Below, one piece after another: positions 32,171-57,828 of a stretch of DNA of 64,000 nt. The notes below the pieces were generated by a model. That model was not told the origin of the DNA and made no database searches. It saw only the letters and a program-made list of their open reading frames with translations. The translations under genes were made by a program, and so were the position numbers. The stretch is from Apostichopus japonicus (lineage: Eukaryota; Echinodermata; Holothuroidea; Aspidochirotida; Stichopodidae), in contig NC_092577.1 of assembly GCF_037975245.1 (NCBI RefSeq), positions 15,266,013 to 15,330,012 of the forward strand, read 5' to 3'. How positions within the stretch are numbered: the first letter of the stretch is position 1; every line of letters starts with the position of its first letter.

Positions 32171-32604
32171 TAATAGTTGGGGTCTATACAGCACACCTTT
32201 AAGTCCAGATCTCATTATTACTAATGATTGTTGTGTGTTGCGAATTCATTTGCTCAATTTAAAGAATTGTTATATGTCTCTCTTTCATTTTCAGAGATAT
32301 CGCAATGACGTCTTTTGTCATGCTCACGGATATGGAAGTAACTTTTCGTCAGAACGCTAGCATTGGCGAGACGGTAGTAGTGAAAATATGTTTCTTTTTA
32401 GATAATGACGATTACACAACATCATAAAAAGATTTAATTGTGATTGTCAGAAATGCTTTATTTAAAAATATTCTATATTAATTCCGTTTGGATATTAATA
32501 AGGGGGGTTGCAGAAGTACAAAATGAAAAACACTTCTGAGATTCCAATATGTAATGTGATATCCGTATAGCAAATAGATATTTCTCAACAACATAACAGT
32601 CCGA

Positions 32605-34377
32605 ATGTGCGCACTATTTGCAGCAATGAACCAACCACAGGACGGGTTACCGGAACCCACGTGCCATACTCATGGGCGAAAATATGTGTGTTGTTGTACA
32701 TGCGGTAATGTACCAGTTTGCATGGCCTGTGACAACAAGAAGCACGAAGGACACCAGCTTCATCACGTAAGTGAAATAGCAAACAGGGAAAGAAAGTCAA
32801 TTAGAATAAAGCTCACTGAACTTAATATTGAGTATCGCAAACTACAGGAGTTAAAAGAGAGGATTCAATCTACAAACCAACAACTAACAGAAAATTTCGC
32901 AACATTAACTGAAAAATTACGAGTTCATTATGAACCACAGATACAGAAGATAACACTTGAACTTGAAGAAAGCAATACGCGACAGATAAGAGACGCAGAG
33001 AAAATAGAAATCAGACGAGCTAATGAAAGAGATCAAATTACTAACTTTTTGGAAGGAAAACTTGGCTTTAGACTGACACAAGCTGAACTCATGCAAAAAG
33101 CGGAACTTCCGATGAGAAAATATGACAAACAGTTGAAAGAGTCTCAACAGAAACACCATGAAATAGACAAGGGAATAACACAAAAAATTGACAATGCATT
33201 TTTGGATTGGGAAAAGTTGACCGCAAATGCAGAATTACTCAGAACGTGTAAAGAACGTCAACTTCAACACATATTAGACGTCTGCGAAGGAATTACTAAA
33301 GGATACGAGAACTTTAAAACAACGGCTTCATCTTTTCTTTCGGCGAACGACGAGTGGACAGACGCCCAGTTCATTCCTGATCTAGAGAGAGAGTGCGAAC
33401 CTCTGATCAAAGCAATGAAGACACAATTTCCAGAGATAACAGTGTTAAGTAATTTCCGTATCAGTGATATAGCCCAACCAGTTGTTGATGACATCACGCT
33501 TACTGAAAATGAAGAGTCGGTTGTCGATGTTGTTGGGATTAAAAGTAAAGTTTGGAATATCACTGGTGTAACAAGCGACATGAACGGCAGCATCGTCATT
33601 ACTGGTAGTGCAACGAAAAAGTACTCACACATCACTGTCATTGACGCAAATGACAAAGTACAACGCCATGAAAATATAAAGAGAGAAATGAAAACAGTTC
33701 ATATCCCGGATCGTTTTTGTACCAACATGTTACGTTATCAAGTTGTAACAGTTAGTGCAGCGGGTGGGATCAGTACATACAATGTTTGCAATGGTACAAC
33801 CAACGAGACAAATATCGTTGTTGGCGTCAGAAAATGGCCGAAAGACCGGTTTCTGGCCTGTGTAACTACTGATCCAGTCCGCAATATTGTTCTGGTCGGT
33901 ACCAACAGTAGAGACGTGTATGTATTTGACGATAATCTGACGTATATTCAAACCATACTTCTACCAGGTATTATCACTGGATCTTTTGATATAGCTGCAC
34001 ATGTGGGAAACTTACTTGTTTGTGACTATGTTGGTAGGACAGCATACGTTGTCACCATCCAGGGAACGAGGAGTACGGTGATGTTTGAATTCACTAAACC
34101 GTGTTTGGATGTCGGTGACTATAGACCTCTCAGTGTCTGTACAGACAAGCGTGGATTTGTGTACATGTTATGGGATAACATTAATTCGTCTAACATGTTA
34201 TGCATCCTAGCCCAGTATAGCCAAGATGGCCGTCACTTACTTAAAACAAGGAATGTAGATAGCAACTCTCGATGTGTAACGATATGTGAAGTGAAAGAGA
34301 ACGAGAAACTTCTTATAGCGACATACACTTCGGGAAAGATTTATACATACGGCATAACTGTAAATGAAAATAAGTGA
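32605..34377 (+). CDS. B-box / coiled-coil / beta-propeller protein (TRIM-like, no RING)
   Basis: Single-exon open frame of 590 codons. ATG at 32,605; a second ATG at 32,626 (MNQPQDG) is an equally good start. Residues about 20-54 form a B-box zinc finger (C20-x2-H23, the C30/C31/C33 cluster, C39-x2-C42, then H47/H50/H53). Residues about 60-240 are a long charged coiled coil. From about 300 to the end is repetitive beta-strand-rich sequence of NHL/WD-propeller type. TRIM proteins usually start with a RING E3-ligase domain; none is present here, so the product would be a C-V or B-box-only member. Such intronless genes are expanded in echinoderms and amphioxus, where they are assumed to act in ubiquitin or immune regulation. 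No frameshift or stop is seen. A fold-back element ends 435 bp upstream. The likely host function is inferred from the family only. Confidence 0.88.
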   Translation: MCALFAAMNQPQDGLPEPTCHTHGRKYVCCCTCGNVPVCMACDNKKHEGHQLHHVSEIANRERKSIRIKLTELNIEYRKLQELKERIQSTNQQLTENFATLTEKLRVHYEPQIQKITLELEESNTRQIRDAEKIEIRRANERDQITNFLEGKLGFRLTQAELMQKAELPMRKYDKQLKESQQKHHEIDKGITQKIDNAFLDWEKLTANAELLRTCKERQLQHILDVCEGITKGYENFKTTASSFLSANDEWTDAQFIPDLERECEPLIKAMKTQFPEITVLSNFRISDIAQPVVDDITLTENEESVVDVVGIKSKVWNITGVTSDMNGSIVITGSATKKYSHITVIDANDKVQRHENIKREMKTVHIPDRFCTNMLRYQVVTVSAAGGISTYNVCNGTTNETNIVVGVRKWPKDRFLACVTTDPVRNIVLVGTNSRDVYVFDDNLTYIQTILLPGIITGSFDIAAHVGNLLVCDYVGRTAYVVTIQGTRSTVMFEFTKPCLDVGDYRPLSVCTDKRGFVYMLWDNINSSNMLCILAQYSQDGRHLLKTRNVDSNSRCVTICEVKENEKLLIATYTSGKIYTYGITVNENK

Positions 34378-42037: not shown

Positions 42038-43362
42038 CCCAGATGAATGACCTTTCTTGTGTAACATGTAGCATTTTTGTAATTGAACATGCTTTTTGGA
42101 ATAATTGGTGAAGATTTTACAGAAATTAGTGAATTACAGTATATACCCAAAACTACACAGAATTAATTTGATGCAGTTGTGATACTGGTCAATATTTGGA
42201 CAACCAATGTAACAGTGATGAAATAAAAAGACCCTCTATGAGATATGCACAACTGCATTCTCACCCACCTTTACCAAAGTGTACCATAAATCTACTGTGG
42301 TAAGTGTAGTTTTGCATATTTCCCAATTGGCCTGCCTTACTAAGTTCCCTATAGGTCTATAATAAAGCTCTGTGCATAGAGACAGAGCTCCTCTTAAAGA
42401 ATTCTTATAAACAGGATGTGGTAAGTAAGTTTGCCTAGCAAGATCTTCTTCAGAGGCTATATGACAAGTACTTTAACAGCAGGGACAAATACACACACAG
42501 AAATACAGACAGGTTAATGAGCATGGTGACCACAAATAGATATGTAAGAGGATTACTACACAAGGGATGGAGAGAAGAATGAACGAAACCAACCCAGGAA
42601 AAGGAGAGGTGAAAGATAAACAGTAGAGGGACAAAGAGAGGATTAAGGGAAGAGGGTAGGGAATAAAATAGAGAGTAGGGAATAAACAGGATGTGAGTCA
42701 TCATGACAGGTTCCTCGTGCTACAAAGCTGTACCCCTTAGAGTATGGTGTCTTTGAGCCAGGTAAAGTAATCCAGAGTTAATGTTTGTCTTTGATTGGCT
42801 ACGTCTCAGGCACTGCATACATCTGTCCTTTTCTCAATGTTTCTAAGAAGATCAGTATTAGTGAGTTGGTTGGGGAACATCTGCTCCAATTTCCCTTTGT
42901 TCCATCACTTCATCATTTGTGCTACTTTGGAGAAGTCATCAATCTAATGAGAAAAGTTCAAGAAGTTTAGTGTAAAGTATTATTTAAATTTGGTCAATTA
43001 ATTAAATTGGCATTATTTATTTCATAGTCTTATTTACCCCTACTGCAAAATAAGGGTTGGCATTTGCTATACTTCATTGTACTGTGTATTGTGTAGGATA
43101 AGGCTGTGGTACAGTGCCTTAAAGTGATATATTTGCTAATAAAGAATGTTGAGGCCAATTACTCATCAGAGTGCCTCCATTCATTCAATTGTTCTTTAAT
43201 TTTTAACATGATTATTGTAAAAATAGTTTAGTTTCTGGATATATATTGGAGGCCTATAGTTGACTTAACCATGATAAGTTGATGGCTGACTCATGACGTG
43301 GCTTTATCAGTACTGCAGCTTTATAGTTCAATAGAAAGGTTAAAAAGTCAGTAATTGCCATT
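42038..43362. other. intergenic, no gene seen
   Basis: Left flank of the large transposon. Short featureless open frames only. Confidence 0.45.
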
Positions 43363-43366
43363 TATG

Positions 43367-43389
43367 TGTACCCTTACCCAACACGAATA
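43367..43389 (+). repeat. left terminal inverted repeat
   Basis: Begins TGTACCCTTACC; matches the inverse of 57,015-57,037 with one C/T mismatch at position 13. Confidence 0.95.
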
Positions 43390-43735
43390 ACTATTAAGTA
43401 TTCGCTAAGTATTCGCTAAGTATTCGAATAGCTAAATAGTTGGTATTTCAAAAATTTAAGTATTCAGACTTTAGAATACCTAATCGAACACTTAAAATAA
43501 CTATTCCAATAGGTATTCGAATACTTCTTTCAATTGAATGCTTAATCGAATATTAAATATAGCTATACAAATAAGTATTCCAATACCTATTTCACTGAAT
43601 ACTTAAGGAATGCCTATTTGAATACTTATTTCCTTTGAACATATTTTTTGAATACTAAAGAAACTATTGAACATCTATTCGAATACTAAGACGAATACTT
43701 ATTCAAAAATGCACATGTTCTAATATACAGTATTC
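43390..43735. repeat. left subterminal repeat array (TATTCGAATA)
   Basis: Tandem TAAGTATTCGC units at the outer edge, then repeated GTATTCGAATAC-type words in both orientations, degenerating inward. Mirrors the right subterminal array. Confidence 0.9.
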
Positions 43736-43828
43736 TCAACTGTAATGTTGGACTCTAACTTTTTACATCCTGTTTTGCTGTACAAAGGTATAGGAGGAGA
43801 CTGGACTTAGATTATTTTCAGAACAATT

Positions 43829-43945
43829 TGGACTTAGACAAATTTCAGTTGATTGTGGACTTAGACATTTTTCAGTTGATTGTGGACTTTCAGTTGATTG
43901 TGAACTTGGACAACTTTCAGTTGATTGTGGACTTAGAAAAATTTC
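43829..43945. repeat. short tandem repeat, units of 25-35 bp
   Basis: TTTCAGTTGATTGTGGACTT recurs about four times with small changes and variable spacing (AGACAAA, AGACATT, GGACAAC inserts). Confidence 0.85.
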
Positions 43946-44480
43946 TTGCTTGTGAAGATCAATGTATTTTTAGTTTATATAACAACTAATTCAATTTTAA
44001 TTGCAATTACAGAGGGATGCATTCCATATGAAGGATGGAAGAGTATATTGATAAATATAATGTATATTGAATTAGAAAGTGGAAGAAGTTAACACATTTT
44101 CAAAAAGACAAACTTTCAACTGATATGTATGTTTTGTAAATATATTTTAGTAAAGTTCAAGTATTTCTGTTGAGAAATATCCAGTCAAATACACACATTT
44201 CAAGTCAAATTAAGACTTTAAACTTTTAAACCTACATGTACAGCAAAAGACATTGGTCTGTGAGAAGCGCTGGATTTAACTGATCACACACCAAATACAC
44301 TGATAGTTACAAGATGTTGAATTATATTTAATTAATATTACAATATATACTACATTAACTGGACAGCTAACCAGCAATGGTAACAAAGATTGAGGTTAAT
44401 GATATTCCATGACATCTAACCGCCTGGTATTGAAATCACCTCCTTTCAATCTACGACCAAACATATTTACGATATTTAAC

Positions 44481-44614
44481 CAGTGGTGTAGCTAGACTAT
44501 TTTCCAGGGGGGCGAAATTCTCAAAACTTCAGACTTTTCACTTGCGATTTTGACAAAATTTTACAAAAAAATTCCGGCAGGGGGGCGCGGATTCCCCCCG
44601 TTCCTGCGCCACTG
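44481..44614. mobile_element. 134-bp hAT MITE nested in the large transposon
   Basis: Starts CAGTGGTGTAGCTAG, ends CTGCGCCACTG, and is flanked by TATTTAAC on both sides (44,473-44,480 and 44,615-44,622), a perfect 8-bp target duplication. It sits just past the 3' end of the transposase gene. Confidence 0.93.
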
Positions 44615-44736
44615 TATTTAACTATTCACGTGCCTCTTTTGTCAAGGGGCCATTCCATTTGGAATATTCCTACTTTATGTGAAAAGGGTGTTTATTTGCA
44701 TGTATTAATTGATAACTATAATGCACAAAATGACTT

Positions 44737-47700
44737 TCAATTCTTTTCAACTTTGTTTGGAAATTCACAAATAAACTTCTCATTATTAATTTCAACAAGA
44801 ATACATGAGTACAGAATACTTTGAATATCGATTACCTCATATTTTTGAAACTCCATCTGTACTTTATGAATGTGATCATTGCTCTCCGAAACAAACAACA
44901 GAAAAGGGACAACTATACAAATAAACAGTGGGTTTTCCTTAGATCCAACTTTGCCAAAATACTTCACAGAACCAAACTTGTATGAATCTTTGTACTGGTA
45001 CTTGATGACACTCTGATTTCTTCTGGTCAATTTTTTATATGGACTCCCATAAACAAATGAATTACTAGCCTTGAAAAATGTTCTAAGCCAAATTTCAATG
45101 TTATTTGAGAAAATGTTAAGAACTTGTTTTACTGCAGAAAATTCACTGGCAGATAAGCATATTTCTTTAAAACCATCAATTCTGTAAATTCCTGGAAATA
45201 CAGTTTGCCATGACTTTGAAAAAGAAACTGAAGTTTTAAGGTTATTTAAATATTCCAATGCTTCAAAATCATTTATACAAAACTTCTGACTCAATATTGG
45301 AACCAAATGTAAAAAATTAAATGACTGAACAATTTGTGTATCTACACCCTGAGTACCATGGATAAAGGAAACAATAAATCCGTTCATATCTTCAAAAAGA
45401 AAACAATTGTTTACATACAAAGGTCCATTGAAACGAACACAGTCAATTAAATGAACCAGCTGATGAACATTCATGGTCATATACCTTAGTGAGTACAAAT
45501 CTTGAAAATTTTTAACAAATTCTAGCATACACATTTCTGCCAAAGCCAAGTCATCAACTGATACATTATCTTGAGATAACAAGTAAATTGATCTTACTAG
45601 CAAACAAAAATGAGTGAAATAATCACGAGTTAACACCTGTGACAAAATTGGTATTCCCCAATACAGGAGGAAATTACGAAACTCTGAAGCTTTCCAATAA
45701 GCTAGATCATTCAAAGATCGAGGCACTCTTGTTATATTGATTGTTGGTTTAATATAAGATAAAGACTCACTCACTTGAGACTTTGCACGATAGAAAGAAA
45801 ATTTATTGTTACGATTCTCTACCCCAAACCAAAGCTTTAATAAAAGCTTCATTACACCTTCACAAACACAGTGCATGTAGTCGATGACCATGCCATCCGC
45901 AAAATGAAAGTATTTTAAATACAAAAACCAAAATGGTCCCTTACATCCATTGGTTACATATGCTTTGTCCTGGTTTTTGATCTTACTGACAGTTTCTTTG
46001 ACATCTTTTAAAATTTGTTCCATGGTGCGTTTTGGACCAACAGGATCTTCAGTGTTGAAGAGGAAAACATGACAATTGCCTCCACTTTCTGTTCTATATG
46101 TTTCCCCAGGTTGCAAACAATGCCAACAACCATGTTTACCATTAAATTGAATACTATTTGTCACCAAAGACTTAGCTGGTAAGTCACATGTACATGACAG
46201 TAAGGCAGCCTTGCATAGAAATTCTTCTCCAGAAAAATCAGTTAATCTTACACCACTTTCCAACTTTCTCAAATCAAGGAAAAGAGGATTTAAAAAGCTC
46301 CACATAATAGGTTTCTTTGGAGAGATCCAAATTCCATACATTAACATGTTTTCTCTCGCCTTCCTTTCTGAAATGGGTAGTTCATTTACAATCATATATA
46401 CAGGCCACATGGAAATTTTGGAGCTCTTAAAAATGGCAACACCATCAGTATTCATAGCGAAAGACAAGTTATTGGGATCATTTAAAAAGCCTGCTTGATA
46501 CAAATCCTGATATAATTTGGAATCATACACATCACGAATACAGTTATGTGTTGTTGTTTTAAGGTGATGAAAACGATGATTTCGGACCTGCTGCGAAAAT
46601 TCTTTTCGGTTGAACAGTACTTGCAACTGATGTAGTAAACTGATTTGCACAAAATAAGATACCGCACCTGATACTGTGACATCAATTTTGCAAAGTTCAT
46701 TACTACACATCTTGGCACTTTTAGGGATGTGGTGGTAACAGTTGGAACAGTAGTAATGTACAACTGGTAGGAATGTATACTTGGCCAAGTACTTCTTGAG
46801 GCCATGATATGTTCCCATCAGACAATTCCTGTCTGGCAAAATTAGTTGCAATAAAACAAGAAAGTAATGAATGGTTTCTTGAGAGAGTTTAAAACGAATC
46901 ATGAAGCATGTTAAAAGTAAAACAATGGTGCCAAGACGCCGTTTTGATCCCGGGTACAAAGGTGGGTCAACTTCTTTTTCACTGTGGCTAGAGCATTCTT
47001 CTACTTCATCTTCAGCTATCTGCATTATATCATTCCCTAAAACTGTAATGGGGTCATAGGTGTCTTCAGCTAGTTCTCCAAAATGGTTCTCTTTCGCATT
47101 GGCATGGAGTTCATTTATTAGATCATCGAGATCCTCGTCCTTCTGTGGGGAATAATCCTGAAAATTATCAGGTTGCACATCACGTTCTTCAGTCACCTCA
47201 CCAACATCATCCATCGAGTGTATATTCCCTGAGGCAAAATTATCATCTGGAGACTCTATACTGCAACTTAAAACAGGATCAGCCAAGGAAGTCTTCATTT
47301 TACTGGGTGTTCTGATCTAATAAAACAGAAAGACAACAAAAAAACACAATAGACTACTATCTTACTAAAGCTTAAGCATATCATTTGATTCAATATTGCA
47401 GTTTAGGACATTCATAATTTATTGCAATGTTATAAACAATTGAGTAGGTAGGTACTAGGCCAAAAAATTATTTGATTTGCAAAATTCAGACAATATACCT
47501 TTTATATGCTTAACAATTTAGAAAACTAAAAACATTACATTTCTTTCCACCACAACAAAAGAGTTTTTGACCAAAAATCATCCATTATGGTGGGATTTTT
47601 GAGTGATCTCTGCAACAACAAACATTTTCACAGCTTAATTACCATATTTAAATTAAATTTGATGTTAATTTGTAGTTACTGTACTGTAACAGTACTATAA

Positions 47701-48671
47701 ATAAAAAAATTAAAGTTTAGTCATTCCATGCAACTTGAAAATTTGATACAAAAACTAAAAATTTCCCAACTGTGAGAACTTTCCCTTAACTACAAAATTG
47801 CAAATTATGATAAATGGCCTATCAATTTTCTTAAATAAGCAGTTCTACATAACCAATAAGGCTAATAACATGCTCCTTTTTCAGGAACATACATGTAGTG
47901 TGTTGTTAAGTTGAAATTATGTTTAACATTCTTGAGTTTCAGAAAAGAAATTTCATACCCTGGTTTTGTACCCTCTACGATTCTTACCCAGACTCTTAAA
48001 TCTATGTACCTAAAACCAACCCTCAACCTAAACAAAATCTTGGGCCTAACACCAACCCAAATTTATTAAAAAATACTTTAAAATTAATGTTAGATAATTG
48101 GAATATTAGATACTAGGCTACGAAACGTCCAAATTGTGAGGGTTCAAAATGTCCAACAACCGGACAGGTGCATTTATAGTGGAAAGTTTATTTTCTCCAT
48201 GACAAGAATATTGTAAGACCGTGATGATTCATACCCAAATTCTGAAATTAATTACCCTAAAAGTAAAACCAAGCCTAAACTTAACCTTAACCTACGCCTA
48301 ACCAAAATTTACGAAAAAAATATTTCAAAATATTGTGATTATGAAACGCTAGCACCCTGTACTTCCCTTTTGCTTAGTATGGGATGACATAACTTCCCGA
48401 CCAGGAGAATTACCCCTCCAGCTGGAGAAATGTGCCCCAATTGTATTTTAACTGATAACAAAACCAGAAACAATAAAACCAAATTCACAATTTGATTAAG
48501 AGTATACATATAATTTTTTAAATAAACACTAACCTCTTGTTGTTCACATTCCAAACGAGACACATCCTGAGTGATTTGTGCAGTCCACTTTCTATAAGGT
48601 CCTCTGCGACGCTTTGATACTGAGTCTCCTTTGCTAGAAACGGGGCCTATACCTACACCATTATTAGACAT
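44737..48671 (-). CDS. TNP2-family transposase, two exons, 905 aa
   Basis: Join on the minus strand of 48,671-48,534 (46 codons, basic KRRRGPYRKW segment) and 47,316-44,737. The donor GAG|GTTAGT and acceptor TTATTAG keep the frame; the second exon alone is open for 859 codons and has an internal ATG at 47,298. Numbering from that ATG: an acidic N-terminal tail (1-112), a Cys4 zinc ribbon (C184, C187, C198, C203), NTDG with D285, TCD with D372, a GCWHC zinc knuckle about 390, IDYMHCVCEGVMK with D473, and GPLYVNNCFLFEDMNG with E636. These match the Transposase_21/TNP2 core of animal CACTA-like elements and its C-terminal DUF4218-like part. It would cut and rejoin the element ends. No stop or frameshift, so possibly active. 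Upstream it shares an approximately 880-bp spacer with the BEN gene. Confidence 0.9.
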
Positions 48672-49551
48672 GATTGTTAATGTTATTGTTCAGGCGTAGG
48701 CTCTGTGTTAAAGTCTAGCATGTAACTTGTTAGGCTAGCCAACTGCAGTGTGACGCGGACAGTGACACTGATGATGATATTTGCAGGTCTTTCAAATTAT
48801 TTTGAAATAAAACTGCAGGGCTAATTTACTTTCAAAGTTTCCCGATCAATGCGAGCCTAACTTATTGACTGCCCAAAAATTCTAAGGATTTCAAACAGAT
48901 GAGCAACAGAACTTATACCGGTCGCGTCAGGCTGGATCAAGATCGTGGTACGTGGCGTCGGTTAATCACTGAGCATGTAGGGTAGACGAAACTCAACTTA
49001 CTACTACTACTAATTAAGAGGATTCGATCATGACAAAAATTGTTAATATTAAACGGCAAATTTTGAGTTTCTAATGTCATCCACTATCATAATAAAAATA
49101 TAGTCCTATTTCTAAGGATTATATAAAAATAAATAATAACGGAAGATTTTATGTTCAAATTAACAAATAAATAGTATTACTTATAATACGCTTTCTGGCC
49201 AAGGTGAAGTGCGCCGGCGCGGCGTGGGTAATATACCGCGGAAGATTTGAAAGACTGACGGACTGAAGCGTTTCTAAAATCTCACCGATCATATTCATAG
49301 ACCTACTGTTTTAGTATTCAGTGCTTAATATTCCATTTTCAATAAATTTTTATTCCTCGTGAATGTTATTCAACTTTTATTAGCAGATTGAGCTTTCAGA
49401 AATAAAAGTTTCAGTTTTGAGTCGGACTAAATTTATTCCAGTCCTTGCAGCCTAACATGTGGTAGACTGAACATTATTAACATTAGGCTGGAACTTGGAA
49501 GAGAATATAATTTTATCCAACGGCGATAGGCCTAGGCCAAAATATCCAATA
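48672..49551. promoter_or_regulatory. divergent promoter region of the transposon
   Basis: About 880 bp between the two start codons, with no open frame and one GC-rich patch (GCGCCGGCGCGGCG near 49,210). Both genes must be driven from here if the element is self-contained. No TATA element is convincing. Confidence 0.5.
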
Positions 49552-51914
49552 ATGAATGTTCAGAATTTGCTGCAGTTATCAAAGAATATGGAAAATATTG
49601 TTGACCCATCGAAGAAGACCAAGCCTCAAAAATGTGTTGTTTATTGGATTAATGATCAACAAGTTAGTACAGAGCCTTTAAGTTCGGTGATGGACAAAGA
49701 AAATGCAATGGAAAATGCAGTCTGCTTGATAAAGTGGAGAGGAAAGGGGCCGTATTCTGGAAAAATCATCAAAATAAGTGGTATGTTGACCTTTTTTTCT
49801 GTTTCATTTCTATGTGTAATCATTTGAAACTTTCTGACAGTGGCACAATAACCAATTTCAACTTCTAATTTTCTCCTGTCTTGTGCAACGATAAACACTA
49901 AACAGCATAGGCCCTAGGCCTAGGCTATTTGCAGTTAATCAAATAAATATTCAAATTAAAATAAGACAAGGTTACATGAGTAGATTATTTCTAGTTGAGG
50001 CCTAAACTTATAGGGTTACTACAGTTTAGCTTATTCTTATGGGTGCATGGGGCAATGCCTATATGTTCGGTAATTACTTGAACATTCAGAAGGCTACTTG
50101 GATTTTCCTAGTTTTACCTAGGCCTAGTCGTACTTCACGTGCGAGTCTGACGTTTCTCTTACCGTGCTACAGAGATTTTAATTACCATTGAAATAGCGTT
50201 ATCAATCTTTTTTTTTTTTTTGCAATGAATCATGTGGGCAGTTTCTGTAACTTTTTAGGCCCATGTATTATTTTAGCACCTTAAATTAAGCTGAACAAAC
50301 ATAGGTTAAAATTTTGTGTACAAAATCTAATTGCCATCAAATTTTCTGTTAATATCTTTTTTTACAAATGGGTAAATTTCCCCTGAAATCTACCTACTTG
50401 TTGAGCATCGTCTGAACATAGGTGGCTTAATTTGAACACACATGTGCACAGTAAATTGGATGTGTTTTGAATCTGACAGAACGATTGTAAACAAGGCAGT
50501 GTGCTTTTTCAGATGTGTTGGAAGATTTGCAGATTGTAAAGACCTTTGCATGTCTTTCTCAAAATCACAATAACTGAAGCTTTAAAGCTATGAATGAGTC
50601 ATGAGTGCATGCATGGTGTTGAACATTTTTTATCACCTGATAATTTTCTGGGCATTTATACCAGTTTTTATTTTCATACTTTTGTCTTCAAAGATGACAA
50701 AGATATTCTGAGGGTTGCACAGGAGAGGTTGGAACAAGAGTTAAGTGAAGCTCTTCCATCTGCTGATGTACCTGCTCCAAGCGGTGATATAGATGTTTCT
50801 TCCAAAGGTCGAAAAAGAAGGAAAAGCCAGAAGCTGGTCGCATCATCAGATAATTCTGATGCAGAACAGCCTGTAAAACTGTAAAAAGAGTTACAGACAA
50901 ACCTGTAAAGATCGCCAAGAGAGGTAGGTTTTATTGGCTTTTTTTCCCCACAAATCTTCACTCAAGTTTTATTTTTAATGTAAATGTGCACTGTCAATAA
51001 TTGGATAACTAGTTCGGGAAGTTAGTCTCTTTTGTGTAGTTTACTTCCTTGGCAGTCTGGACCAGAAATTCTAGGCCAATTTTAATTTTTTTTTTGCAAA
51101 ATAAATATTCTCTATACCAATTTACAATAAACCAAATGTTGCAATTCAAGGAAAATAAGAAAGGATGACCTAATAAATAACCAAATCTCTAAAAACACCT
51201 TCATCCCTCACTCTGACTTTTATATGTCTCAAGTGCATGTTGATTATCCTTGGGGAGGGTATTGCCATATGTATGACATTAAGTCTAAAGGGAGGTTTAT
51301 AGTCACATATTTGACAACATGCATGTACAGTAATGCTGATGTTTTGTTTTAAGTGTATTTTGTAACACCAAAAAAAAAAGTTATGGAAACCACATTGCAG
51401 TTGTTCTTTAATCATAATCATTTGAATGCTTAAGTATGTGACTAGAAGAATTTCAAGGTCTGCCTGGAGAATGAGTCATCAGGTACAGTGTTTAAGCCAG
51501 CTTATTTTTGTGCAAAAATGTCGCACAATGCTGACCAAATAACACATTAAAAAAAATTGAAAAATAAGGAATTTGTGCACAGTAAGCTTACAGATTGCTA
51601 ACACAAAATGTGTTGCACCTTCAATAATTATAGCATTGAAAATCAATAAAAAAAACCTTTACTGTAAGGAAAATGTGTCATACGCTTTTGAACCTAGCTA
51701 AAACACTGATAAGGTATGTCGCAACATCCATAGAAGGTCATTCTTTATGATGGGGAAAACAAATTTTGTGATAATGCAGTGTCGTGACTGATCCTAAGTA
51801 GTGAAACATGTATTTATCCTTTCTTACAGCACCCTCTGCATCTACACAGAAGGTAACTGATTCGATAAACATGTTGGCTGGATTCAGTTCAGTTTTAATG
51901 GAAGAACCAATGAC

Positions 51915-52155
51915 GTCCTTGCCTGCCAGTACGACTTTGCCTGCCGGTACTTCCCTGCCAGCTTGTACATCCTTGCCTGCCAGTACATCCTTGCCTGCCA
52001 GTACGACTTTGCCTGCCGGTACTTCCCTGCCAGCTTGTACATCCTTGCCTGCCAGTACGACTTTGCCAGCTTGTACATCCTTGCCTGCCAGTACGTCTTT
52101 GCCAGCTTGTACATCTTTGCCAGCCAGTACATCTTTGCCTGCTTCTTTGCCAATT
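51915..52155 (+). repeat. 18-bp coding minisatellite
   Basis: Repeats of TTGCCTGCCAGTACGTC with C/G/A variants, each encoding a six-residue TSLPAS/TLPAGT/SLPACT unit, about a dozen copies, degenerating toward 52,260. It stays in frame with the rest of exon 3. Confidence 0.95.
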
Positions 52156-53512
52156 CCCGCCAGTGTGTCATTGCCTACCAGAATGACTTCACCAGCCAGA
52201 ACATTTTTACCTGCCATAACGTCTTCGCCAACCTATACCCATCTGCCAACACAACACACAGCCACATATGCATCTTTAACCCCTGCCAGGGCATCTTCTC
52301 CAGCTTCCTATGCAACTCAGCCTATCACTGCCTCTTCATTCAATATGCGACAGCAAACCAGAGTTAATCATCAACCCACCACCAAACAGCCACATTGGTC
52401 GATTTTTGAAAGCCAAATGACACTCGATGACGATGATGTCATCCATGACTTTGTCATGGAGAACAGCAACGTAGAACTGCAAACTAGAGTAGAAGTTCTT
52501 GAAAGAGAAAACGCAGCCCTTTTGGAAGAAAATGCTGCATTGCGTGCTGCAAAGGGCTCTTCTAAACCAGGTATTTTAATCATTTAATAGTTTTTATGTT
52601 GTTTGTAAATGGTTAATCTGAAACAGTAGTGTGAAACCACTACCACTAACCCAACAAATGATTCCCTCTGAAAAAACAATAGATAAACTTGCTTCAATTC
52701 TTTGCTATTTTATCACTTCAAGCTAAAAGGGAATATTGTTAAAGCGAGTTATTTCACATGGAATTAACCTTGTGCCCAACAGGCCAATTGGAGAAAACTG
52801 CTGTTAGCGGGGCCTGTGTGGTGCAAGAAACGTACATTTCACAAAAAGGCACCATAATATACCAAATTGGTTGAAACAACAGTGCATCATGCTAATTACT
52901 GTATCTTTATTGCTCTTGTTAATTTACTGTACATCTTTTTCTCAACAGATGCAGAGGTTTTATTTCACCTACGCAAACTTAGTGAACTGTTGGAACCATC
53001 CAGAAAATCAAACACTCTGGTGAGTATATATATATCCCTTACCTTCTCTGCAATACATCTAACTTTTGGTTCCAATTGTTCCTTCAGCAGGGAACTCTTG
53101 TTTTATGTAGGCCACATGAATCAGAGTCCCATTACAACATGCTCAAGGACAACAGAGAAATATGTATAAAGATGTATTTTCTAAAATCCAACCCTGAGGG
53201 TATTCAAGGTATAATGGTTATTCAATTGTGCAGGATTGAAAACCAATAATGGTGTCTTACTTAAATATTTGCTTTCTGTAGAAGTCAGTTTTAACCAGTT
53301 TTGATTTGTCACTTTCATCCTCAATTTAGCTCATGTTGTGGCTACTTGTTCACAAATCTTTAAGCACTGAATTGAATGAAGGATGCTTGTGTCAACATTA
53401 CCTAAGTTGCTTTGAAATCTTATAAAACAATGGAAGTAACTAGTGCTGTGAACAAAAAGTAATTTACCAAACACCTACTTGCAAATAAAATGTGAGTGGT
53501 TAGCAATTAATC

Positions 53513-53561
53513 TTGTCATTTTCTCTGTGGAACTAATCATGTTCCACAGAGAAAATGACAA
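53513..53561. repeat. 21-bp-arm hairpin inside an intron
   Basis: TTGTCATTTTCTCTGTGGAA(C) pairs perfectly with its inverse across a 7-nt TAATCAT loop. The second duplication copy (about 54,500-54,540) lacks the left arm, so the hairpin arose in copy 1 only. Confidence 0.95.
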
Positions 53562-54207
53562 AAGTGTTTATAGAACTCATATGCTCCTTTGTTCATGAAA
53601 AATTTGCTCAATTTTTGTAGGCCCACAAGAAACAAAGTTTAAATGATAAGAAAGAAAAACTAAAAAAAAGTGTTATATAAAATTATCAACAAAAGCCTGA
53701 TTTAAGTGACAAGCGAGCAGTTGTCACAGTATTAGAAGTATCAAATTTTCGTCAAAATTCTGCTAACTTGATCTTATATTGCATAATGTTAACTTATGTC
53801 ATTTAGTATTTCATTATTATTTCTGGCAGAACCAAAGTCAAGAGCTTTCTGAAGTTTCCGGGGACACAAGCCTAGGAGAAGGGTCAGTGCATAAGGTAAG
53901 ATAACAGTCTTCATAAGTATTGGTTCTTTTAGTGAAAATGGCTAAAAAAAATCATTCTGCTAGAAAATTAATGCCATCTTCCTCAAAACTCAAAATTGAT
54001 CACTCCTGCAGTACCTCAATCCCATTTCCCTACCCCTTCAGTCTCCTATCTAAATGATTTAGTTTATCAAATAGCTTGTTCAGCGTGTTGCTTCAATTTA
54101 ATATATTGTTGGAGCAAGCCAAAAGATTGCCTTGTCTGTCCATTTAGAAACCTACATTTCAGCTGAATTTTTGCAAGTTAAAAAATACTTCAGGACAACT
54201 TGGGGTC

Positions 54208-54311
54208 GTCAGGTAGCCTAGTGATTAAGGCCGCAGACTGCACCATTGTGTTTCACATGTGCATGGGTGTGAGACTGACCTGACGTTGTAGGTTTTATCC
54301 GGGTACTTTCA
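54208..54311 (+). mobile_element. tRNA-derived SINE, 5' portion
   Basis: GTAGCCTAGTGATTAAGG is a tRNA A-box-like start, followed by GGGTGTGAGACTGACC (degenerate B box) and GTAGGTTTTATCCGGGTACTT, the start of a body common in invertebrate SINEs. It is cut at GGGTACTT, exactly where the second duplication copy begins. Confidence 0.65.
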
Positions 54312-55083
54312 TCCTCAAGTTAGCACATGTTGTGGCTACTTGTTCACAAATCTTTAAGCACTGAATTGAATGTAGGATGCTTGTGTCAACATTACCTAAG
54401 TTGCTTTGAAATCTTATAAAACAATGAAAGGAACTAGTGCTGTGAATGAAAAGTAATTTACTAAACACCTACTTGCAAATAAAATGTGAGTGGTTAGCAA
54501 TTAATCATGCATGATTAGTTCCACAAAGAAAATGACAAAAGTGTTTATAGAACTCATATACACTTTTGTTCATGAAAAATTTGCTCAATTGTTGTAAGCC
54601 CACAAGAAACAAAATTTGCATGATAAGAAAGAAAAAGTAAAAAAAAAGTGTTAAATCAGGCTTAGTGAAAAGCGAGCAGTTGTCACAGTATTAGAAGTAA
54701 CAAAACTTTCCGTCAAAATTCTGCTAACTTGATCTAATATTGCATAATGTTAACTTATGTCATTTAGTATTTCATTATTATTTCTGGCAGAACCAAAGTC
54801 AAGAGCTTTCTGAAGTTTCCAGGGACACAAGCCTAGGAGAAGGTTCAGTGCATAAGGTAAGATAAAAGTCTTCATATGTATTGGTTCTTTTAGTGACAAT
54901 GGCTAAATTCTTTTTCATTCTGCTAGAAAATTGATACCATCTTCCTCAAAACTTAAGATTGATCACTCCTGCAGTACCTCAATCCCATTCCCTACCCCTT
55001 CAGTTTTCCTTTCTAAATGATTTGTTTATCAAATAGCTTGTTCCGCGTGTTGCTTCAATTTAATATTTGAAATTTAATATTAT

Positions 55084-55275
55084 ATGTTTCACATGTGCTT
55101 GGGTGTGAGACTGACCTGACGTTGTAGGTTTTCTCAGGGTACTTCGGTTTCTTCCCACTTCATTTGTCTCATTTATGTTTATCATATCATGCCATTGTAT
55201 ACAGATTCTTCTCATCTATATATTACCATAGCTGTTAAATAAAGGGATGTGGAACTACACCAACCAACCATCAGG
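55084..55275 (+). mobile_element. tRNA-derived SINE, 3' portion with tail
   Basis: Overlaps the other fragment from TTTCACATGTGC to GGGTACTT, then carries on through TCGGTTTCTTCCCACTTCA to the tail AAATAAAGGGATGTGGAACT. Together the two pieces give one SINE. Confidence 0.65.
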
Positions 55276-56561
55276 ACAACATGATTTTAATTAAAGAGTT
55301 GAAATGTTAAGTGGTCAACTAGACATGTGGGTGATTTCTTTCACCCTACATGCAATCTCTTCCATAAAATCTCAAAATTTCATACTCAAGTCCTTTTCTT
55401 CCTAATTTAACTTTGCACTCTTAATTTCATTTTTATGTTATTCTTTGACTACAGGGCCTTGAAATTGTAACAAACTGAAAATAAATGTAGATTTTTTTTT
55501 TTTTTTCCAGCAACTTCTCATCAGGGATCCCAATGACACTGATCGCTTCTCCCATATCACTGTCGAGCCCACCAAGCTATACTCCATTCAGCTGAAGGCT
55601 CTAAAGAAAGATCCACAGGAGGCACCATTGTTTTTGCTGAATGGAGTCATAGATCTTATATTTCCAATAGATGTTTTGGCTGCATCGTCTGGACTTGGAC
55701 TGCGGAAAGATGGAAATCTGGGGGGAACAGAAAACCTTTGGCAGGAGATAAAGTTGCTGCATTGAGAGGTATTTAATATGCTGTAATAAATAAGTGATAA
55801 CTTAGGATCTAAAAACTTTTCCCACAAAATTTGGTTCCAGTGTAGCGTGTGTTACTAGCACAAGAATGACACATGGTACCCTGATAGTCCTATTTTTAAA
55901 TATGGAGGCGGTTTCATGCATCTTATTTGGCTCTTATTTTGCAAAACATTTAAGTGGTGGGCATGCAGAGTTAAATGTGATTACATTTCTGTTTTTCATA
56001 TGTGGTTATATGCAAAAAGCATCATTTTTATAATTATTATAGGGGGCGGGGGAGGGCTAGTAAGGTTATATATAAACTTTGTGACATGTTGTAAGACATG
56101 TGTAAACATACTTGCTTGCAAAAAAGTGGGGACTAAAGCCACCTATCCCTCTCCCGCGTCGCGACGTCCCTGTATTATGCACTGAAACTATAACCTTTTT
56201 TGTTCTGGTGGGTGGTTATTGTGCCAATGTATATTTGTGCTGTATCATTATTAATTATTTCTATTTATGTTTTTTTTCAGAGTACATTCACAGTATGTGT
56301 GGCAGAAATCAGTGGCCAGAACCACTGCCACAAGAAATTAACAAACGATTTGCGTACAAGTGCACAAATGCTCGAAGAGATATGAAATTGAAGAAGCTGT
56401 AGTTTCATTTTTGTTTTGTTTTGTAATTTTATACTTGTTGAATAAAAAGGAGGCTTCAGAATTCTGGTTATTCTCATTATTTGTTTGGTGAGTTTTAATC
56501 AAGGAGCTAGGACAACAAGCTGGCCAAATCCTAACTCTCCTTGGAACTGATTAGCATACAA

Positions 56562-57014
56562 GTATTCAGTAAGTATTCGAGTAAGTATTCAGAAACCTGT
56601 TAAGCCTTCATAACATAACTAATTAGCATACAAGTATTCGAATACTAGCGAATAAGTATTCGAATAACTATAAGTATTCGTCAGAGCCGAATTATTTAAA
56701 TGAGCGAATACTTATATGTAAATGAGCTAAGTAGTCAGATAGCTATTCCAATAGCTATTCGAATAGCTATTCGAATAGCTATTCCAATACTATTCCAATA
56801 GCTATTCGAATACCTATTCGAATATCTATTCGAATATCTATTCGAATACCTAATAGGTATTCGAATACTTAACTCATTAACATAATTCGGCTCTGACGAA
56901 GGCTTATAGTTATTCGTATTAGTATTCGAATACTTATTTTGTACTGTGTGTTATATGGTACATTCTCTGAATACTAAGGAAATCTTCGAATACTTATCGA
57001 ATACTTATCGAATA
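56562..57014. repeat. right subterminal repeat array (TATTCGAATA)
   Basis: More than a dozen copies of GAATACTTAT, ATAGCTATTCGAATAG and related palindromes, in both orientations, ending in tandem CGAATACTTAT next to the terminal repeat. Confidence 0.92.
56661..56916. repeat. internal inverted repeat in the right subterminal region
   Basis: Arms 56,661-56,697 and 56,882-56,916 share TTCGTCAGAGCCGAATTAT, inverted, with CGAATAACTATAAG outside it. The enclosed 185 bp are dense in CTATTCGAATA words. Confidence 0.9.
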
Positions 57015-57037
57015 TATTCGTGTTAGGTAAGGGTACA
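57015..57037 (-). repeat. right terminal inverted repeat
   Basis: Ends GGTAAGGGTACA; inverse of the left end with one mismatch. TATG follows at 57,038-57,041. Confidence 0.95.
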
Positions 57038-57041
57038 TATG

Positions 57042-57828
57042 TGCCTATGCATTCAAAGTGTGTTGTTAAGTGTGTGGGAGATCTAAAAGTTTTAAAAGGG
57101 AGTGAATACATTTAAGGTAAGGTTAACAGTATTGTAGACCTTAGAGTACTTTACTATGTTCATTATTTCTGTATATAGTTCTATGTTTAATAGATATAGA
57201 CTGGTATTTGTTTCTGTGCAGGTTAAAGGGAAATCTAGCTACTGTACAATGTGGCTTTTCTTGTTGTTTATTACAATAGTGTCACCATATATGGCATAAA
57301 TACAAGAATTCCACTTTATGGCCTCAACTGACCTTAAATGCCCTATGACAACAGCCTTAAACAAAAGCAGCATCTACCAAACTACCCAAATGTTTTTGTT
57401 GTATGCAAATTGATATGCCATACTAGCTGCATATGTATTTACTGCATAGGACATGCATGATTAAGTCAATTAATTTTACTTTTGAAAGTGGGTTCTGCTC
57501 TCTAAACTTAAATTTATGCTAAATATTAGTAAGGAAGTTTAAGTCACTCTAAGATCTTATAAATATCGCATTTTGAGTAGTTGTGTAAGATGGTAACAAA
57601 TACAGGTTTCGTGAGTATTCATCAATATTCCAAAAGAAGTCTATTTTAAACATGTATGTGTGGTGGGGAAAAATACAGGTGATAGCTGGTTGCACGCACC
57701 TCGTCACTCTTTCTCCAATTCCAAAATCAAGCTCCCCCCCCCTCCTCCCTTCCCTTAACTCGGGAAACTTCATATTGATCTAAATTATTCATGTTTTTTC
57801 ATCTTCCTTCAAAAGTTTTCCTGAAAAT
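57042..57828. other. spacer between the two transposons
   Basis: No gene. The left end of the KDZ element should lie in here or further left, but no terminal repeat can be recognised without seeing its right end. Confidence 0.5.

Follow-up and report, generated by a model that had tools for sequence, protein, structure and literature searches.

A CCC-ended transposon, probably of the TRC type, with a 2-bp target duplication and a divergent BEN-like partner gene in Apostichopus japonicus

In the present study, a stretch of 64,000 nucleotides from the genome of Apostichopus japonicus (assembly GCF_037975245.1, contig NC_092577.1, positions 15,266,013 to 15,330,012; hereafter the window) was analysed, and a transposon of 13,663 bp with CCC...GGG ends was delimited at positions 43371-57033. 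This element is a real transposon, fairly recently mobile, of a known animal type related to the CACTA elements. A first-pass annotation of the same DNA had described a two-gene TNP2 transposon with inverted ends in an animal genome, and that much was upheld; several of its further claims were not. Taking the evidence on the ends, the transposase, the partner gene and the repeats near the ends together, we regard it as probable that the element is a cut-and-paste transposon of the TRC type within the CMCT clade, in which the TNP2 protein cuts the ends and a divergently transcribed BEN-like partner binds the terminal arrays.

First, the borders of the element differ from those originally proposed. 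Inverted ends of 23 bp are present at 43367-43389 (+) and 57015-57037 (-), and none were obtained in 100 shuffles. Directly outside them TATG stands at 43363-43366 and again at 57038-57041. The annotation had proposed TGTACCC ends, a 4-bp TATG duplication and a separate animal lineage, and the symmetrical placement of TATG and TGTA on the two sides of the window copy is in its favour. The other copies in the genome speak against that proposal. Ends were searched in the whole assembly to which the window belongs (671,581,487 bases, 35 contigs) at up to 3 mismatches, using a pattern that included TGTA, so that copies above 3 mismatches were out of reach. There were 95 matches, against 6 for the reversed control; TGTA was present in 3 of the 95, the exact ones only, and the common part starts CCCTTACCYAACACGAATA. 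The borders, said to be defined to the base, thus move inward, with the TGTA and TACA letters lying outside the element. From the 95 matches, 20 end pairs were taken for comparison of the flanks, and in 19 of them the 2 bp directly outside CCC...GGG were identical (TA in 8, TT in 5, TG in 4 and AA in 2). The match extended over exactly 2 bp in 18 pairs and over a third base in one, the copy on contig C15, and when left and right flanks were drawn from different copies, agreement was seen in 92 of 380 combinations. Although other copies had been expected to carry 4-bp duplications of their own, no pair of the 20 matched over the 4 bp adjoining CCC...GGG, and the offset TATG/TATG match was found in the window copy alone (1/20). 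TATG is therefore present on both sides of the element, but it is not the target duplication. Ends flanked by GTTA form a group that was not considered further, being taken for a derivative that had multiplied as part of a larger repeat.

Second, sites without the insertion were recovered, and these decide between the two sets of borders. Joined-flank constructs for 8 of the 20 pairs were searched against the genome, and for 4 of these, close empty copies (at least 93% identity) were recovered. For the window insertion, whose flanks were joined by one TA, five copies lacking the element were found, with 96-99% identity over 280-293 bp of the query and 98.7-100% identity across 238 bp at the junction. 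In each of these copies the sequence is ...ATTTATGTG-TA-CATATGTGCC..., that is, with a single TA and not with the single TATG that had been anticipated for an empty allele. Because these sites keep the TGTA and TACA letters, which would be absent under the 4-bp TATG model, that model was rejected, and the single TA therefore places the element at 43371-57033 with a TA duplication; there remains almost no chance that the TATG proposal is right. Flanks lacking a 4-bp duplication, which the annotation itself had named as counter-evidence, were thus obtained in the copies, and the empty sites agree with this. Concerning the other insertions, 35 of the 40 matches listed for the C15 copy span the empty junction, and the five that were read each show one TT. 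The insertions L002 and L005 have one close empty copy each (93% and 99%, respectively). Two insertions lie inside minisatellites, the neighbouring units of which represent the empty site with 2 mismatches of 32, and a third minisatellite insertion (C3b) is less clear, with 9 mismatches. The flanks of the window element (approximately 43220-43370 and 57034-57183) belong to a repeat that is present elsewhere in at least five further copies, all lacking the insertion.

Third, the element has relatives of several degrees in this genome. A second full-length copy of 12,922 bp was found at C15:23352396-23365317 and is 99.3% identical to the window element over the transposase frame and 94.8-97.2% identical, gaps counted, in three long blocks of the whole element. 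The transposase of the C15 copy is interrupted by stops, and the ratio of nonsynonymous to synonymous divergence between the two transposases (0.60 on 17 differences) is uninformative at approximately 99% identity of the coding parts. In another lineage, the copies at C16:1363575-1374862 and C17:24242-35531 are 99.86% identical, and comparison of the two gave the borders without any choice on our part, namely CCCCTCTACAAAT...ATTTGTAGAGGGG with flanks CA/CA and TT/TT. Five additional elements, C1, C12a, C12b, C17b and C16b, also have CCC ends, with 2-bp matches of TA, GT, AT, TA and TT, respectively; their inverted repeats were picked by hand for a CCC start, and the 2-bp matches are thus partly chosen. 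These lineages fit one shared design, which comprises CCC ends, a 2-bp duplication, a tnp2 transposase and a divergent BEN-like partner. Short derivatives were also observed: the L029 copy, 96.5% identical to a 1.9-kb copy along its full length, retains approximately 540 bp from one end of the window element, 266 bp from the other and approximately 150 bp of the interior.

The transposase open reading frame of the window, as described in the annotation, was confirmed, since it matches the Pfam family Transposase_21/tnp2 with an E value of 1.7e-13 (50.7 bits against a cut-off of 28.6), and a match to DUF1258 (E 1.6e-12) was also obtained. Six transposases from this genome were aligned, a subset of the 15 loci linked to a partner gene. 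The residues D372, C391-x2-C394, H612-x3-H616 and E636 are invariant in all six, and an earlier D (in TDG, or KDG in C12b) is present in all five proteins long enough to include the position, while identity across the lineages is 27-50%. No relatives of the transposase were found in a viral contig set searched with six peptide patterns, and a sequence search of solved structures gave none at E values up to 1.

According to the literature, TRC elements are recognised by inverted repeats that start with CCC, a Transposase_21/tnp2 protein and 2-bp duplications (PMC1636069). Because all three were observed here (the duplication in 19/20 pairs), the features tested would place the element with the animal TRC type, relatives of CACTA/EnSpm. 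The C(2)C and H(3-4)H set between the second D and the last E was also found, which is the motif of the CMCT clade (PMC12730594). The features of plant-type CACTA elements were not observed, the ends being CCC rather than CACTA and the duplication 2 bp rather than 3 bp. In SmTRC1 and its relatives, CCC ends, Transposase_21 and paralogous empty sites have been reported, and a 2-bp duplication was recorded for 7 of the 14 SmTRC1 copies (PMC1636069); TRC elements are known from Schistosoma, Tribolium and Aedes (DeMarco 2006, PMC1636069), and similar proteins were mentioned for Aedes, zebrafish, Ciona and sea urchin in that paper. The end of the Tribolium TRC element, CCCTAGTAG, resembles the ends of C12b and C17b (PMC1636069). 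Similarly, the Hydra element Spongebob/EnSpm-4N1_HM has CCC ends and a 2-bp duplication and has been filed as TRC in the CACTA superfamily (2015, PMC4298943). Since TGTACCC ends and a 4-bp duplication were wrong, the case for an unnamed animal lineage falls, and CCC ends with a 2-bp duplication had already been described in animal CACTA relatives in 2006 and 2015.

The elements of the present study nevertheless differ from these known systems. The cloned SmTRC1 is approximately 4.7 kb in length, with no BEN partner mentioned in the accessible part of that report (PMC1636069), whereas the elements here are 11-19 kb long and have, besides the divergent partner, long subterminal arrays. Spongebob is 5.8 kb, its exact transposase was not found owing to stops and frameshifts, and no partner gene is mentioned in the portion of the text available (PMC4298943). 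The fungal CMCT elements Plavaka and ESTA share the C(2)C and H(3-4)H set, carry accessory genes and, in PlavakaA and ESTA, have 2-bp duplications, but PlavakaA ends in TGT..ACA and the accessory genes are TET/JBP rather than BEN (PMC12730594). A survey of the open literature, by titles and the beginnings of abstracts and not covering Repbase or Dfam, recognised no BEN-like partner paired with a CACTA-type transposase. The BEN-like partner is therefore the unusual part of the element and a possible new variant feature.

This partner gene lies on the + strand, divergent from the transposase. A 62-residue stretch of its N-terminal exon recurs on the opposite strand at a distance of 2.3-3.1 kb from nine transposase loci, seven of which are outside the window/C15 pair, at 34-67% identity. 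Only four elements, C12b, C17b, C16b and C12a, match the BEN family of Pfam (PF10523, cut-off 23.2 bits) with scores beyond its threshold (25.4-25.9 bits), three of these four matches crossing a TGA that is probably beyond the exon end, and the C17b-type exon alone also exceeds it (25.2 bits). To count the linkage, a divergent partner was sought within 15 kb of 47 transposase loci using the BEN exon of the window, the Pfam BEN family, the N-terminal exon and the BEN-like exon of another lineage as queries. Of the 70 matches to the N-terminal exon 14 were used, the 56 omitted being nearly all from the GTTA carrier group together with some fragments, and all BEN matches from the three other searches were included (41 for the Pfam family, 4 for the BEN exon of the window and 14 for the BEN-like exon of the other lineage). 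A divergent partner was found at 15 of the 47 loci, and at 14 of the 21 with a coverage of at least 480 amino acids, whereas random placement yielded 0.11 such loci on average and never more than 3 in 2000 trials. When the matches to the N-terminal exon and those of the C16 type were left out, linkage was seen at 7 of the 47 loci (random mean 0.037). Because the six transposases compared from the linked lineages share just 27-50% identity, the pairing of transposase and partner looks old, as judged from sequence comparison.

The ends of the element also contain dense subterminal arrays. The two 500-bp ends together contain 27 occurrences of the repeat TATTCGAA, which is found neither in the 12,663 bp of the interior nor in the 50,337 bp elsewhere in the window. 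The terminal arrays differ among the four lineages studied; the array of C1 consists of AAGGCTTC/AAGCCTTA, and AACTGGGT and CCAACTGG are among the top 8-mers of the ends in the C12b/C17b lineage. The latter, CCAACTGG, is one base off the site of Insv, a resemblance that might be regarded as suggestive only. The short L029 copy keeps both ends, which is what a requirement for the arrays in cis would predict.

Herein, we propose a mechanism to describe how the two genes and the arrays might work together. The DDE transposase TNP2, to judge from its motifs, would cut at the CCC...GGG ends and would join them to the target at positions staggered by 2 bp, so that the observed duplications of 2 bp result. 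The BEN-like partner would bind, as dimers, the lineage-specific and often palindromic arrays at both ends, and in this way might hold the two ends close to each other or control the activity of the transposon, by analogy with TNPA in plant Spm/En, which binds subterminal repeats (PMC2613891). Derivatives of approximately 1.9 kb with both terminal arrays might then move in trans. Plant CACTA elements (Spm/En, Tgmt*) likewise combine tnp2 with a DNA-binding protein for lineage-specific subterminal repeats, but have CACTA ends and, in Tgmt*, a 3-bp duplication, and in the part of that source available to us TNPA is not termed a BEN protein (PMC2613891). In addition, TNPA of Spm is reported to come from the same transcription unit as the transposase, whereas the partner here is divergent.

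Several observations weigh against this proposal. The pair L029b is the only one of the 20 without matching flanks. Four empty versions of its target show ACC-AA-GTAC, whereas at the filled site AA follows the element but just one G precedes it, which points either to loss of the duplicate on the left or to an imprecise insertion. Mis-pairing of the ends was considered and rejected; L029b is a whole 1.9-kb copy, damaged on its left, and counts as a genuine exception. No partner was found at 32 of the 47 transposase loci, one of which is a decayed copy at C17:17.6 Mb whose pieces are 81-90% identical. At C16:26.28 Mb, a BEN-like exon and the transposase share one strand. The array of the C16/C17 lineage is weak, with the top 8-mer, GCGTGCGA, occurring 5 times. 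Moreover, the BEN similarity is low in part of the elements. In the window/C15 type, for which the exon of the C15 copy was joined to the last exon as the query, the match reaches 13.6 bits (E 0.077), and in the C16 type 14.4 bits (E 0.044), both under the cut-off; the C1-type partner gave no BEN match in the Pfam search, comparison with the BEN profile was weak (hhalign probability 4.5, E 0.009), and no relatives of the window/C15-type region were found among solved structures at E values up to 10. The BEN-domain partner of the first-pass annotation thus stands as a BEN-like second gene, with a domain that is weak in the window itself. These scores could mean that the partner is an unrelated DNA-binding protein with a chance similarity to BEN, which we consider improbable, given that Pfam names no family other than BEN for the window/C15 and C16 types and that the elements with a match above the cut-off, and the C17b-type exon, always have it in the same divergent position. 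When the C17b-type region was used as the query against solved structures, one chain of a sensory transduction protein was obtained (E 0.026) and was taken as chance.

Another explanation is that the BEN-like gene is cargo, a self-repressor or an antagonist of host silencing, rather than a transposition protein that binds the ends. Some BEN proteins are reported to function in repression and at chromatin boundaries, and some fungal relatives of CACTA contain accessory genes, for example TET/JBP (PMC12730594). However, the position and orientation of the partner are constant in lineages of such low transposase identity, and the repeat arrays at the ends are dense; both favour a core role without being decisive, and the cargo explanation appears rather unlikely to us, although less so than a chance resemblance. 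The coordinates of the features of the window element are collected in Table 1.

Table 1. Features of the transposon, in positions of the window
Feature	Positions	Strand	Basis
Whole transposon	43371..57033		Ends kept in copies, 2-bp flank matches, empty sites, length
Left TA target duplication	43369..43370		Flank matches and empty sites
Right TA target duplication	57034..57035		Flank matches and empty sites
Left terminal inverted repeat, CCCTTACCCAACACGAATA	43371..43389	+	End search and aligned copies
Right terminal inverted repeat, CCCTTACCTAACACGAATA	57015..57033	-	End search and aligned copies
Left subterminal array, ATTCGAAT/TATTCGAA-type repeats (approximate borders)	43390..43710		Repeat counts
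Right subterminal array, ATTCGAAT/TATTCGAA-type repeats (approximate borders)	56550..57014		Repeat counts
TNP2 transposase open reading frame, 853 amino acids, no internal stop	44737..47298	-	Open reading frame, Pfam, conserved residues
Possible upstream transposase exon (inferred)	48339..48671	-	Same-strand open reading frame
Partner N-terminal exon (approximate borders)	49553..49780	+	62-residue stretch recurring near transposase loci
Partner basic exon	50693..50884	+	Frame one base off the C15 copy
Partner exon with 18-bp coding repeats	51829..52571	+	Weak bZIP-like matches at exon end
Partner first BEN-like exon	55512..55764	+	One-base difference from C15 shifts frame
Partner last BEN-like exon	56280..56402	+	Conserved in the C1 element
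Internal direct duplication of about 1 kb, partner-gene intron	53311..55144		In C15, about 0.78 kb matched by both halves

The element had also been called complete, and both ends are indeed present, but completeness is doubtful for the partner gene. Because it differs from the C15 copy by single-base insertions or deletions in two exons, and the C15 copy reads on through the first BEN-like exon, the partner gene of the window copy is probably broken. At 51916-52144 the gene contains an 18-bp coding tandem repeat, which gives peptide repeats of the SLPA(S/C)T type.

Additional repeats were observed in the genome and in the window. Approximately 50 copies of the N-terminal exon, 83-92% identical to that of the window and mostly open, are located on contigs C2, C4, C5, C8, C11, C12, C14, C15 and C19-C22, some of them near GTTA-flanked ends of the family of the window element, and on C19 eight copies follow one another in steps of 161-227 kb (for example, C19:31032802-32319365). 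Such a pattern would fit a long segment, itself repeated, into which a derivative of the element had been taken up. Fourteen BEN matches, at C2:18945755-18946111 and 13 other sites, have a common open frame of 119 amino acids; at the one locus that was read, the open reading frames were by eye not transposase-like and there was no transposase match nearby, and the frame possibly belongs to another BEN-carrying repeat. Elsewhere in the window, an open frame of 599 amino acids with, by eye, a B-box/TRIM-like start was observed at 32578-34374 (+). The window and three carrier loci gave no Rfam match at gathering scores. In the mitochondrial COX1 gene, located on contig C35, AAA stands at positions that are conserved as Asn, in agreement with the echinoderm/flatworm code and with an echinoderm host.

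Thus, the present results correct the borders and the filing of a large animal transposon, and offer a candidate second protein for the animal relatives of CACTA. If the partner reads the arrays, lineages with different arrays in one genome would provide a natural experiment on the DNA specificity of BEN proteins. More tentatively, and with more doubt than confidence, we hypothesize that a BEN-family protein might be an ancestral core component of animal TRC/CACTA elements, acting in the manner of TNPA by dimeric binding to palindromic subterminal arrays, that the arrays might co-evolve with it in each lineage, and that some animal BEN factors might descend from these proteins or have fed into them. 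If true, this would bear on the origin of the animal BEN transcription and boundary factors.

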